From Candidatus Omnitrophota bacterium (GTDB lineage: Bacteria; Omnitrophota; Gorgyraeia; Gorgyraeales; Gorgyraeaceae): a DNA stretch of 44,628 bases. The notes beneath the pieces were generated by a model that did not search any database, was not told the origin of the DNA, and was given only the letters and a program-made list of their open reading frames with translations. The position numbers and the translations under genes are program-made. Each line of letters opens with the position of its first letter. Position 1 is the stretch's first letter. Positions 7,866-22,634 of the stretch are shown in pieces. Location of the stretch: positions 1 through 44,628 of the forward strand of contig JAHIYJ010000060.1 in the NCBI GenBank assembly GCA_018814825.1, given 5' to 3'.

Positions 7866-10800
7866 TTATTTTGCAGTTGCGAGGGCATGAATCAACTGCA
7901 TGTTCTTAGTAACATCTTCGATATTTCTAAAATTGTAAGAATTAGCATCTCCTACCAACTGTTGCCATTGTTCATGTGCTTGACGCCTTCTATTTAAGTT
8001 TATAATAAACATCTCTTTACCATCAACCTTTTCCCTTATTCTTGCAATACTCCTCAAATTTCGCTCCTGAGCTATATTCTCTGCCATGATAACTGGTATT
8101 TGTTCATCTTCTAATAATTCATCTACCTCTTCTAAGAATGCTTCAGTTTCATTTAATACATACGTAGCTCTAAACCCAACTGTATTAATCTTTCTTCTGA
8201 CCAAACTAACACTATGGAATCTCCTGCCTTTATCAGTAGTTCTCTCGCTGACTCTATCCTGGACCCAACCTAAGTCATGCAAGGCTTGGGCTAATATTCG
8301 GCCGCGCGGGACTTCGACAAAAACTCCATCCAATCCATAAGATGCGCCCTGTTGGGATAAGGCATCGCTGAGCCTTCTGTAGCCTCGGCGGTCTAAAACA
8401 AACGATATAAAGTCTTGCTCAGGATAAAACCTATCAGCTACCATATAAAGAACAAGGGCTAATGTATCTTGCTCTGATGCTAAGAGCATATCTCCAAATG
8501 ATGCCAGTCTTTCACCTTCGGGTTTGATTCTCTTCGTTCTATCCTCTCGTATAGCCTCAAGAAGGTCAGATACAAGCCTCTTAGGCTCGCTACTATCGAG
8601 GCTGGCAACCAACCTTTCATCAATAAGACCTATTACTTCATCAAAAGCAACATGCCATGCCTCTAATTGTGACAGTACCTCCTCAATCGTCATTTCTCTT
8701 GTCATAATAGCTTCTGTAAAATCAGATACGTCACTAAAAGTTGGGCTAAAGTAATTCCCCCAAAAATGAGAAAATAACCAGTCTATAAGATAGAAGGCTC
8801 TATATTCAGAGGTAGAACGAAAATAACTTATACCACCTGGAGTGATGCTATTATAAAAATCGTTAACTGATGCACATTCATCTCTTATCCTTGTTAACTC
8901 AGTCCTTACTTCATCTAAGTCGGTAACCTCCATTGAAGCTATTCTCTCATTCCACTCTCTTATATGACTATCTAATAAAGACATTCTCTCTCTAAGCGCA
9001 TCAACCTTTTGCCTTGCGGTTCTAACTACTTCTTGTTTAGAGACATCAGGGCCAGGTAAATTGCATAATATAGTTTCTCCTGGATATAAATGGAGTTCAG
9101 TAAAAACTAATGCCAATTCCCCATTTTCATCAAGGGTTAATTCTACCGCGTCTCTTGCGCCTTCTACAGCATTAATAGCTTCGACTAAATAAATAAGCTG
9201 CTGGGCAGCGACATTATCAGGCTCCTCTTCTAAAATAAGTTGAGCGAGGCGTTGCGCTTTGTCTAATTCACCTTCTACAGCAAGCTCTTTAATCTTTTCT
9301 TCGTCCATACGTCTCTGAGCTTCTCTTATTCCTTCCCTTACAGCGTCTGGACTCTGTAACTCCATTAGAAGTCGAGCCCCAACTGGTGTACTTGGATCAT
9401 CAATACCTGCAATGTATGCTGTATGTCTTTGTATAGTCTTAGGATCTATAAAACGAGCCTGCTCTACACGAGATAATAGCTCAAGACCCCAAAAGTTCTG
9501 CAATCCATCGCGCAATACGCTCCTTGCTGTTTCAGGTAGCATGGACTCGGCATCGACAATTGCACGTAGGAACGATTCTAATTTTGCCTGAATTTCACTA
9601 GGGTCTCTTTCCTGCACCACAGCTGCAGCGACAATAGTCCATTCTTCCATAAGATATTCTCTGACCTGGGTCAGTAGAGCCATATTAGGGTCTTTGTCCT
9701 CGGCCAGCCTTTCTCTCTCCATTGCCCGCTCTAATGCTACCCTTGCTGCTTCCACATCGCCAGCATCAACAGGTTCGACAGAAACCATCTCAGGCTTAGT
9801 TTCAACTAGCTGAGCGGGTAAAGTGATAGTAAAAGTAGTGCCTCTATCGGGTTCACTCTCAACATCTATAGTACCGTTGTGGGCCTTAATGGTGCTCCAA
9901 ACAATATATAATCCTAATCCGTGAACTATACCTCTTTCTCTTGGTTTGATAGAGAATCCGGCAATACCTTGTCGAAAATTGTCTATTGCTTCCTGCGGCA
10001 TACCTCTGCCTGTATCACTTACACAGATTACAATCCCATCTTCTGTCAGCTTTGCTGAAACTGTTATCTTTCCTCCATCTGGCATTGCCTCAGAGGCATT
10101 ATTTATCAAATTGAAAATAGCTCGATCCATCTTTATCTCATCAACGACAACCATCAATTCATGTGGTAAATCTTCAACTATAACTAAATCTTCTCTACCT
10201 TGTTTTCTCCATCTCTTCCTGAAACTACTGTAAACCTCGGATAACACTGTTCCCAAATCAACTTGGTCTAGTTCTAAAGTCATCTTGCCTGAAATAAATC
10301 CTGTAAAGAGCCTGTCTGCCTTACCGATTTCCCTTAATAATCTCTCCACAAAAGTCTTATCTGAAATACTATCTGATATAGAGGTAACGAATACCTCCAT
10401 CTCTTTAACTATACCGTGCATCTCTTCGAGTGTAGTCCTAACCTCATCAGCTATTTTATCCAAATCATAATCCCCTCTTCTTATCTTTTCTATATGCTCT
10501 TGCAAGTGAAAATCACTACGCCAAAGTCTATTCTCAAGATGAACTGCTTCTTCAATCTGCTCTACATTTTCTACATCTAAACATCTCTTGGTTAGTTCCC
10601 TAATGTCGAGGAACAAAAGGCCAACTATATTACCTAATTCATGCTTAGCAATAAATAGATTCAGCACTCGTTCATCATAAATTAGAGGCCTGCCTTCTAT
10701 TTCTCTGCTTGGAATCATTTGACCACTGGTTAATAGCTCTAAAAGACTGTCTATTCTTTCGGGAATTACACTAAATCTAATAATTGCCCATCTAGTACGA

Positions 10801-12302
10801 GTACGATCAGCAGTGTAATATTCATCCATAACATCTTTCATGTCAGATCTAGCCCTATTTAATCCAATAGAAAATGCTCCAATTTCAAGCTGTAATTCTT
10901 CTGTACCAGCAATTATTGATCTCTCCAGTGTCCTGTCTAATGCAATCTGTACCACTTCTAATTCCTTCATTATTTCATGTGATATAACTCCTACCTTCGC
11001 CCAGTTCATATCCTCTTTATCTTGGACTTCAGTTATTAGTCGTCGATATCCATCTCTAACCTTAACCAGTGGCCCATATGCTTCCTGGTATAATTCATTA
11101 ACTACGCTTTCGTCGGATAAACTTAATTTCTGGGCATAATAAAGATGGTCTTCATCAATCCCATCAGTATTAAAACCTATATCCCGCAATACCTCAGAGA
11201 CATGATGAATCCAACTAAGCTTAATTCTCCCCAGAACCGCAGCGTTGGGCATCAATACTCTGTACATCTCTCTCAATAACTCTATGGTTTTTTCTCTCCC
11301 AAGAACATCTGTTCCTGTCCCTGCCGCATAAATCATGGCAAGTGTCCCGCTATTAAATGGCATAGAACAGATGTCAGCGCGATGCAGCCTAATACGTTGA
11401 CGTTCAGCAGGAGAAAGGGCTAACCATTCTTTAAAGATTCTTAGGAAATTACCCCTATCAAGTTCAACAACATGAATAGTCTGAATTTCAGGCTCTATCT
11501 GCAACAACGCTCTCACTTCAATAAGACCAGGCCCTGGTCCCAATATAGCAACTTCTGAACCCTTCACCAGTTCGGATAAAGAATGTCCTGTGTCTTCAAA
11601 TTTTTTCACAACTTTTTCGAGCATTTCTTCAGGCCATCTGGATGCGTAAATTCTATAATTAGGATTGACTTCTGGTGACTCAAGTTTTTCGCCATAGTCA
11701 ACAACGACCATATTTCGTCCTTTATTTTCATCAAAAAATACCTTTAACCTAATATCACTATCAATGGCGGCATAAGTTGTTAAACGCATCTCGATTTCTT
11801 CATAAAGCTCCTGCTCCCTTGATAATGCAGACTCCGTAAAGTCTGATGCAAGGTCTGCGGCTATGTCCTTGGGATCAGCTTTTTTCACTCCAAATTCTTC
11901 AGTAAGTCTTTGCTCAAACCTAGCAATAACTTCGCCATGTCTTTGCTTATCATCTCCCGCTACTTCAAGCTCATCCTGAAATTCCTTCATCATGACGCGG
12001 ACATCCCCAAGCATTTCCTGAGCCCCTGCTAAGAAGCCTTTATCCATGAGCCTACTAACTATATCCAATACCTCGCTCCACATCCCTCCGCCAGAGCCAA
12101 TGCCAAGATTTCCAGTGCTAGCCTGTTCTTCTTGTTTGTGTTGCTCCCCTATCCACTCTTCCATTGGCTTATTAAAATGAGAAGGAGGTCGCAGGGTGTC
12201 TCTTGAATCAGGATAGGCATAGAGGGTGGTATTACATAAGAATACTATGCTTATCAAAATTGATACTATCCTCACATTGAAATCTTTTCTAATCTTCATC
12301 AT
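7866..12302 (-). CDS. Large multidomain protein: N-terminal leader, SAM-methyltransferase-like region, histidine kinase core, long uncharacterised C-terminus
   Basis: 1478 aa; leader IVSILISIVFLCNTTLYAYPDSRDTLRPP; VAILGPGPGLIEVRALL (MTase motif I-like); KHELGNIVGLL (H-box-like); NLINNASEAMPDGG, SDTGRGMP, HGLGLYIVWSTIKAHNGTI, GTTFTITLP (HATPase_c). Confidence 0.85.
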   Translation of the reverse strand: MMKIRKDFNVRIVSILISIVFLCNTTLYAYPDSRDTLRPPSHFNKPMEEWIGEQHKQEEQASTGNLGIGSGGGMWSEVLDIVSRLMDKGFLAGAQEMLGDVRVMMKEFQDELEVAGDDKQRHGEVIARFEQRLTEEFGVKKADPKDIAADLASDFTESALSREQELYEEIEMRLTTYAAIDSDIRLKVFFDENKGRNMVVVDYGEKLESPEVNPNYRIYASRWPEEMLEKVVKKFEDTGHSLSELVKGSEVAILGPGPGLIEVRALLQIEPEIQTIHVVELDRGNFLRIFKEWLALSPAERQRIRLHRADICSMPFNSGTLAMIYAAGTGTDVLGREKTIELLREMYRVLMPNAAVLGRIKLSWIHHVSEVLRDIGFNTDGIDEDHLYYAQKLSLSDESVVNELYQEAYGPLVKVRDGYRRLITEVQDKEDMNWAKVGVISHEIMKELEVVQIALDRTLERSIIAGTEELQLEIGAFSIGLNRARSDMKDVMDEYYTADRTRTRWAIIRFSVIPERIDSLLELLTSGQMIPSREIEGRPLIYDERVLNLFIAKHELGNIVGLLFLDIRELTKRCLDVENVEQIEEAVHLENRLWRSDFHLQEHIEKIRRGDYDLDKIADEVRTTLEEMHGIVKEMEVFVTSISDSISDKTFVERLLREIGKADRLFTGFISGKMTLELDQVDLGTVLSEVYSSFRKRWRKQGREDLVIVEDLPHELMVVVDEIKMDRAIFNLINNASEAMPDGGKITVSAKLTEDGIVICVSDTGRGMPQEAIDNFRQGIAGFSIKPRERGIVHGLGLYIVWSTIKAHNGTIDVESEPDRGTTFTITLPAQLVETKPEMVSVEPVDAGDVEAARVALERAMERERLAEDKDPNMALLTQVREYLMEEWTIVAAAVVQERDPSEIQAKLESFLRAIVDAESMLPETARSVLRDGLQNFWGLELLSRVEQARFIDPKTIQRHTAYIAGIDDPSTPVGARLLMELQSPDAVREGIREAQRRMDEEKIKELAVEGELDKAQRLAQLILEEEPDNVAAQQLIYLVEAINAVEGARDAVELTLDENGELALVFTELHLYPGETILCNLPGPDVSKQEVVRTARQKVDALRERMSLLDSHIREWNERIASMEVTDLDEVRTELTRIRDECASVNDFYNSITPGGISYFRSTSEYRAFYLIDWLFSHFWGNYFSPTFSDVSDFTEAIMTREMTIEEVLSQLEAWHVAFDEVIGLIDERLVASLDSSEPKRLVSDLLEAIREDRTKRIKPEGERLASFGDMLLASEQDTLALVLYMVADRFYPEQDFISFVLDRRGYRRLSDALSQQGASYGLDGVFVEVPRGRILAQALHDLGWVQDRVSERTTDKGRRFHSVSLVRRKINTVGFRATYVLNETEAFLEEVDELLEDEQIPVIMAENIAQERNLRSIARIREKVDGKEMFIINLNRRRQAHEQWQQLVGDANSYNFRNIEDVTKNMQLIHALATAK

Positions 12303-21747: not shown

Positions 21748-22041
21748 TCATTTAAATATAAAATACAAAATAACCGCTATGGCGGATAAAGCGAAGATGT
21801 AAAAATCATTAAAATAGAAAAAATCCTTAACTCTGTCAGAGAAGCCCGCTGAATATTTACGGCGCGCCCCGGGACCGGACTTGCGGCCATAGACGTTAAG
21901 GTCGTCTATCCTGTACCGTGTGTAGATCCCGCCGATCTTATAAGACGGTATCGTTCCTTCGCCGGTCAGCTTCTCTATCTCACCCTCGGAAATACCGAGA
22001 TAATCCGCTGTTTCTTTGGCGGTTAAAAATTTCTTCATCAT
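21748..22041 (-). CDS. Excisionase/MerR-type HTH protein with C-terminal transmembrane segment
   Basis: 97 aa; FLTAKETADYLGISEGEIEKLTGEGTIPSYKIGGIYTRYRIDDL (HTH_17-like) then DFYIFALSAIAVILYFIFK (TM). Confidence 0.8.
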   Translation of the reverse strand: MMKKFLTAKETADYLGISEGEIEKLTGEGTIPSYKIGGIYTRYRIDDLNVYGRKSGPGARRKYSAGFSDRVKDFFYFNDFYIFALSAIAVILYFIFK

Positions 22042-22046
22042 ATCTG

Positions 22047-22095
22047 AGCTTTCAGCTATCAGTCATCAGCTATCAGCTGCTGAAGGCTGAAAGCT
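22047..22095. repeat. Intergenic heptad-type inverted repeat
   Basis: agctttcagc (22047-22056) / gctgaaagct (22086-22095) with 7-nt phased agctatc agtcatc agctatc. Confidence 0.85.
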
Positions 22096-22112
22096 GAGAG
22101 CTAATCGCTATT

Positions 22113-22634
22113 TTATTTAGCCCGTTCCTTGGCTATCCACTCGTCTATCATGCCCCTGTCAAATCTCCAGTCATCTCCTTCTTTAAAGGCCGGGATCTTG
22201 CCGGAATTGGCCCAGCTTAGAATATTAGAGACCTCTACCTCAAGATATTTGGCGAGTTGGTCCGCGTTAAAAGCATTACTTCTCTGTTCGGAATAGCGGC
22301 CCATCATCTCGCATTTTCCCTGCATCACCGCGCCTGACTCAATGATCAATACAGGAGTGGTGATATCTCCAACCACATGCGCGCGAGAAAGCATCTGGAG
22401 CTGTTTCTGGGCCCTAATATTGCCTGTGACCTTTCCGCCTACCACTATTTCCTCGCCGATTATGTCCGCCTGCACCGTAGCGTTCTCTCCTATAATGAGG
22501 CTGCCTTTTGTATCCAGTTTGCCCTCAAAGCTGCCGTTTATCCGCAGATTCACTGGGTCTTTAAAAGTCAAAGTACCCTGCATGCTTGCGTCCACATCCA
22601 GTAGCTTCTGCTCTACCCTGTCCTTGCGAGCCAT
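22113..22634 (-). CDS. Bactofilin fused to a C-terminal excisionase-type HTH domain
   Basis: 173 aa; bactofilin core GTLTFKDPVNLRINGSFEGKLDTKGSLIIGENATVQADIIGEEIVVGGKVTGNI...; C-terminus FNADQLAKYLEVEVSNILSWANSGKIPAFKEGDDWRFDRGMIDEWIAKE. Confidence 0.88.
   Translation of the reverse strand: MARKDRVEQKLLDVDASMQGTLTFKDPVNLRINGSFEGKLDTKGSLIIGENATVQADIIGEEIVVGGKVTGNIRAQKQLQMLSRAHVVGDITTPVLIIESGAVMQGKCEMMGRYSEQRSNAFNADQLAKYLEVEVSNILSWANSGKIPAFKEGDDWRFDRGMIDEWIAKERAK

Follow-up and report, generated by a model that had tools for sequence, protein, structure and literature searches.

A bactofilin fused to a C-terminal winged helix-turn-helix (wHTH) domain is conserved across the phylum Omnitrophota, and its gene was in every case followed by a gene for a second wHTH protein with a C-terminal membrane anchor (here called HTH-TM). 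As far as the open-access literature goes, the fusion is a new variant of bactofilin. We read the bactofilin wHTH as a module for protein docking, paired with the wHTH of HTH-TM and so linking the polymer to the membrane, with a probability of about 0.5. According to this model, an excisionase/BldC-type wHTH would have exchanged DNA binding for protein docking in the Omnitrophota bactofilin. The bactofilin core would polymerize and show one wHTH per subunit, and this domain would bind the wHTH of HTH-TM, a tail-anchored protein, probably head to tail as in BldC. The inner membrane would thereby anchor the filament and set its position, and the filament could act there as a platform for other proteins. 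Polymerization, physical binding, the geometry of the contact, and a cellular role in membrane scaffolding or cell shape are inferred. The fuller proposal, that a cytoskeleton-membrane adaptor made of heterotypic, head-to-tail BldC-type wHTHs that no longer bind DNA is ancestral to Omnitrophota, is put forward tentatively.

The fusion gene lies in a 44,628-nucleotide stretch of an Omnitrophota contig (JAHIYJ010000060.1; here called the window), with the following features:

22113..22634, minus strand: bactofilin-wHTH fusion protein, 173 amino acids (open reading frame with ATG start; Pfam Bactofilin and HTH_17)
22308..22601, minus strand: bactofilin beta-helix core, residues 12-109 (Pfam, Foldseek, AlphaFold2 strands)
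22125..22268, minus strand: C-terminal winged HTH (HTH_17), residues 123-170, with an acidic recognition helix (Pfam, AlphaFold2, charge profile)

The initial annotation had recognized a bactofilin core joined to an HTH_17/excisionase-type domain in 22113-22634. That fusion stood, borne out by Pfam, AlphaFold2, Foldseek, and its conservation across the phylum, but the minus strand and the adjoining HTH_17 gene at 21748-22041 had been left out. The core scored 89 bits with Bactofilin (PF04519; cut-off, 27.9; E value of 2.6e-25), and the C-terminal domain scored 40.1 bits with HTH_17 (PF12728; cut-off, 27; E value of 4.5e-10), in keeping with the excisionase-type match claimed earlier. With TIGR01764, the two wHTH proteins scored 29.8 and 33.5 bits (cut-off, 28.8). 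The AlphaFold2 model of the fusion (mean pLDDT of 82) consisted of a beta-helix and, after it, a winged HTH, with helices at residues 124 to 131, 135 to 144, and 160 to 172 and the wing between the last two. In Foldseek searches, the top structural match of the core in the PDB was Caulobacter crescentus BacA (2n3d), and the C-terminal domain matched BldC (6ama/6amk) and RdfS (8dgl). A sequence search of the PDB with the HTH alone as the query returned only chance matches to glutathione transferases. An assignment of the HTH to the MADS1 antiphage family (NF047737) was rejected, with scores of 44.8 and 22.3 bits below the equivalog cut-off of 80. Elsewhere in the window, a 1,478-amino-acid protein (7866-12302, minus strand) had one mid-protein HATPase_c domain as its sole Pfam match at an E value of ≤1e-5.

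The taxonomic spread, which the initial annotation had proposed to survey, was followed within Omnitrophota in a sample of 384 evenly drawn genomes, including ones outside the class of the window. The fusion was present at full length in about 318 of them (hand count, E value of ≤1e-34). About 52 genomes gave weak matches only, and the ones that were inspected consisted of an HTH domain without a bactofilin; 14 of the 384 gave no match. All 41 homologs in the first alignment matched both Pfam families. Conservation across the phylum rules out a chance event or an assembly chimera, and the fusion is probably ancestral to Omnitrophota, since genomes outside the class of the window also have it. 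Among the six bactofilin cores in the plasmid collection, none had an HTH, and no relative was found in viral contigs. The initial annotation had been aware of no described system of this kind, and in the open-access literature we found no description of a bactofilin-HTH fusion and no mention of a bactofilin together with Omnitrophota. The fusion is the sole bactofilin of its genome. In another sampled genome, a stand-alone bactofilin without an HTH was seen (locus L280, G048:C74, 1201-1656, minus strand), in an open reading frame that contains a canonical MFKK start; it may be foreign, because that genome is 8% contaminated.

The adjoining gene, on the same strand, has the following features:

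21748..22041, minus strand: HTH-TM, a 97-amino-acid HTH_17 protein with a C-terminal membrane anchor (open reading frame, Pfam, adjacency, AlphaFold2)
21892..22029, minus strand: winged HTH of HTH-TM, with an acidic recognition helix, a basic wing, and a YKIGG turn (Pfam)
21754..21843, minus strand: DFFYFNDFYI motif and C-terminal transmembrane helix of HTH-TM, residues 67-96 (AlphaFold2, hydrophobicity)

The N-terminal domain of HTH-TM matched HTH_17 with 34.4 bits (cut-off, 27) and resembled BldC in Foldseek, so that a wHTH fold and an HTH_17 family profile go together in both HTH-TM and the bactofilin domain. The AlphaFold2 model placed two C-terminal helices at residues 67 to 77 and 79 to 96, and the DFFYFNDFYI motif precedes the single transmembrane helix. 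HTH-TM has the makeup of a tail-anchored protein, a single hydrophobic segment at the extreme C terminus: a strongly hydrophobic 16-residue C-terminal segment was present in 171 of 172 homologs, the lone exception being a protein cut by a contig end, and in 170 of 172 the segment ended no more than 6 residues from the C terminus. HTH-TM was the next gene downstream on the same strand in all 172 distinct loci of the fusion. Gene order in the wider neighborhood (GatA-GatB-CtpA-TsaD-MgtC-bactofilin-HTH-TM, in most cases with LarB next) was also largely conserved, and adjacency alone is therefore weak evidence of a joint function. A link to ParABS, which Myxococcus xanthus BacNOP are reported to organize (PMC5703909), was considered from that precedent and rejected, with no par gene among the identified neighbors. 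Between the two genes (22042-22112) lies a heptanucleotide-type inverted repeat with a strong predicted RNA fold of -30.2 kcal/mol (z of -3.35). Near-copies of its 14-base core numbered 17 in the genome, as opposed to none in the reversed control, and it is probably a dispersed intergenic repeat.

Canonical bactofilins bind the membrane through an N-terminal MFSKKKK-like peptide (PMC12448750). The window bactofilin begins with MARKDRVEQ, which lacks the hydrophobic residue of this peptide. Among 168 homologs, with start codons inferred, residues 2 to 9 held on average about three lysines or arginines, and position 2 or 3 was hydrophobic in 122. Judged from their sequences, the MAFKKK-like N termini of many homologs may bind the membrane directly. 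This counts against docking to some extent, as the extra anchor provided by HTH-TM would not be strictly needed if the N terminus binds the membrane; the two modes of anchoring may also work jointly.

We found no bactofilin-HTH gene without HTH-TM among the 172 distinct loci, whereas about seven lineages kept HTH-TM but not the bactofilin, several of them at the same MgtC-LarB site. Thus, the dependence is one-way, which fits an anchor on which a client relies, and the retention of HTH-TM shows that it has some other job. HTH-TM without the bactofilin was seen in genus g36 of family f29, in each of the eight f7 family members sampled, and in single genomes of other families; many other bactofilin-less genomes also lacked full-length HTH-TM. 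In g36 and three other genomes, MgtC was followed directly by HTH-TM and LarB, with no bactofilin at the site. In the f7 loci (L336, L338, and others), HTH-TM came after TsaD, and in L336 the next gene encoded DNA polymerase I; no bactofilin or MgtC was recognized there.

In BldC, head-to-tail pairing sets F21, V23, and W31 against L11', I40', T42', L43', and G44' of the next domain (PMC5859096). The bactofilin wHTH kept the head residues (L131 was invariant, position 133 was Val, Ile, or Leu, and W141 was present in 99%), and its tail side was variable at position 150 and acidic at position 152. HTH-TM had a conserved tail side, with the YKIGG turn and Tyr34 as the equivalent of BldC I40. Tyr34 was aromatic in 172 of 172 homologs from loci with the bactofilin versus three of seven lineages without it (Fisher P = 8e-7), a comparison that involves few independent losses and shared ancestry and for which the BldC mapping was made after the data had been seen. 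In the bactofilin-less lineages, position 5 (the equivalent of BldC L11) departed in four of seven, residues 5, 33, and 34 were the commonest departures from the conserved pattern, and the membrane anchor was steadier (1.48 versus 0.55 lineages per conserved position). Constraint on the interface-equivalent residue of HTH-TM was thus altered where the bactofilin was absent. An exact BldC register would set bactofilin E132 against HTH-TM E10, and the exact BldC geometry is doubtful because this pair would repel.

A second reading, which we consider rather doubtful, is that the bactofilin wHTH docks with a different partner, such as a client or a component of the pilus/secretion or cell wall machinery, and that HTH-TM is a separate protein held nearby by the cluster. 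The general conservation of the surrounding gene order and the retention of HTH-TM without the bactofilin both favor it, and an acidic face would suit many partners. Mean-field direct coupling analysis of the 172 pairs (effective number, 127) did not have the depth to recover internal contacts convincingly and showed no clear coupling between the two HTHs, a result that this reading would also accommodate. However, the unbroken adjacency brings together two domains of the same family, and the constraint on the HTH side of HTH-TM shifts where the bactofilin is absent; both points count against this reading.

The initial annotation had proposed that the DNA-binding module tethers the polymer to DNA. 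In this reading, the polymer would bind DNA through its wHTH and organize or anchor the chromosome, and HTH-TM might fasten it to the membrane. In its favor, the domain is a genuine match to HTH_17/excisionase profiles and folds like BldC and RdfS; W141, the equivalent of BldC W31, is conserved, as are four basic residues (K146, K151, K157, and R160); a basic wing is retained in HTH-TM; and weak contacts might be offset by the avidity of a polymer. The residues that contact DNA in BldC tell against it. There, Arg30 and Lys26 make the base contacts and Thr27, Thr29, Lys33, and Trp31 the phosphate contacts, and either of the substitutions R30A and H46E abolishes DNA binding (PMC5859096). The equivalent of Arg30 (position 140) was Glu or Asp in 90% of the 172 distinct bactofilin-HTH homologs, the equivalent of Thr29 (position 139) was mostly Met or Leu, and that of Lys33 (position 143) was mostly Asn or Ser, so that the DNA-contacting residues were largely missing from the C-terminal domain, the observation that the initial annotation had itself named as refuting its proposal. 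Additionally, positions 132, 134, 152, and 159, of which 152 and 159 lie in the wing region, were acidic in 88 to 98%. In a reference set of the 27 best-scoring HTH_17 matches of Omnitrophota, stand-alone proteins whose DNA binding is assumed, the residue at 139 was Tyr in all, that at 140 was Arg or Lys in 85%, and that at 143 was Lys or Arg in 70%. The mean net charge of the exposed recognition helix was -1.87 in the bactofilin and -1.99 in HTH-TM, compared with +2.52 in the stand-alone proteins (P < 1e-16), and that of the whole domain was -2.9, +0.1, and +4.7, respectively. Neither domain combined a basic recognition helix with a basic wing, the wing being strongly basic in HTH-TM only. 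By these residue comparisons, DNA-contact chemistry is lost from both recognition helices, and a tether of the polymer to DNA is unlikely because an acidic helix and domain replace the basic DNA-contact residues of the reference HTH_17 proteins. An HTH_17 annotation by itself is no proof of DNA binding. As a separate observation, a 62-amino-acid stand-alone HTH_17 protein of the same genome that is similar to the bactofilin's HTH (G000:C49:20081-20221, L182) did not have the acidic recognition helix.

That the wHTH acts inside the bactofilin filament, with wHTH-wHTH contacts that bundle or cap filaments and no need for HTH-TM, is very improbable despite the head-to-tail self-association of BldC and of RdfS, which forms superhelical oligomers (PMC5859096, PMC11963761), given that the tail side of the bactofilin domain is either variable or acidic, the contact that E132 would make with its own E126, and the effect of G44E at the equivalent interface of BldC, which disrupts the dimer and abolishes DNA binding (PMC5859096).

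Bactofilins are widespread, and little is understood of the way in which their polymers select partners. A fusion found across a phylum known nearly entirely from metagenomes, with an invariant membrane protein as its neighbor, offers a specific pairing that is open to test. If docking between the bactofilin wHTH and HTH-TM is true, the two-protein adaptor would be new and would clearly exemplify the reuse of a DNA-binding fold to connect proteins in a cytoskeleton.

Compared with canonical bactofilins (C. crescentus BacA, Thermus thermophilus ThBac, and M. xanthus BacNOP), the Omnitrophota fusion likewise has a beta-helix core and shares the short, usually basic N-terminal tail and the expected nucleotide-free polymerization. 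The described bactofilins are not known to carry a wHTH. The fold of BldC, RdfS, and Xis (HTH_17) is shared by both the bactofilin wHTH and HTH-TM, and the bactofilin domain has in common with BldC the Trp at W31 and possibly the head-to-tail interface. In contrast to BldC and the excisionases, the DNA-contact residues here are acidic or neutral, and the domains are fused to a polymer in the bactofilin or to a membrane anchor in HTH-TM. The use of a MerR-type wHTH for protein binding has a precedent in CbpM, which binds the J-domain of CbpA (PDB 3ucs; PMC4063869). CbpM differs in being a soluble dimer that inhibits a co-chaperone, with neither a polymer nor a membrane anchor. RodZ binds MreB through a membrane-anchored Xre-type HTH and has a periplasmic domain beyond the membrane. 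The analogy lies in a membrane-anchored cytoplasmic HTH that serves to bind a polymer of the cytoskeleton; however, RodZ binds the polymer subunit directly, whereas here both proposed partners carry a MerR/excisionase-type wHTH.
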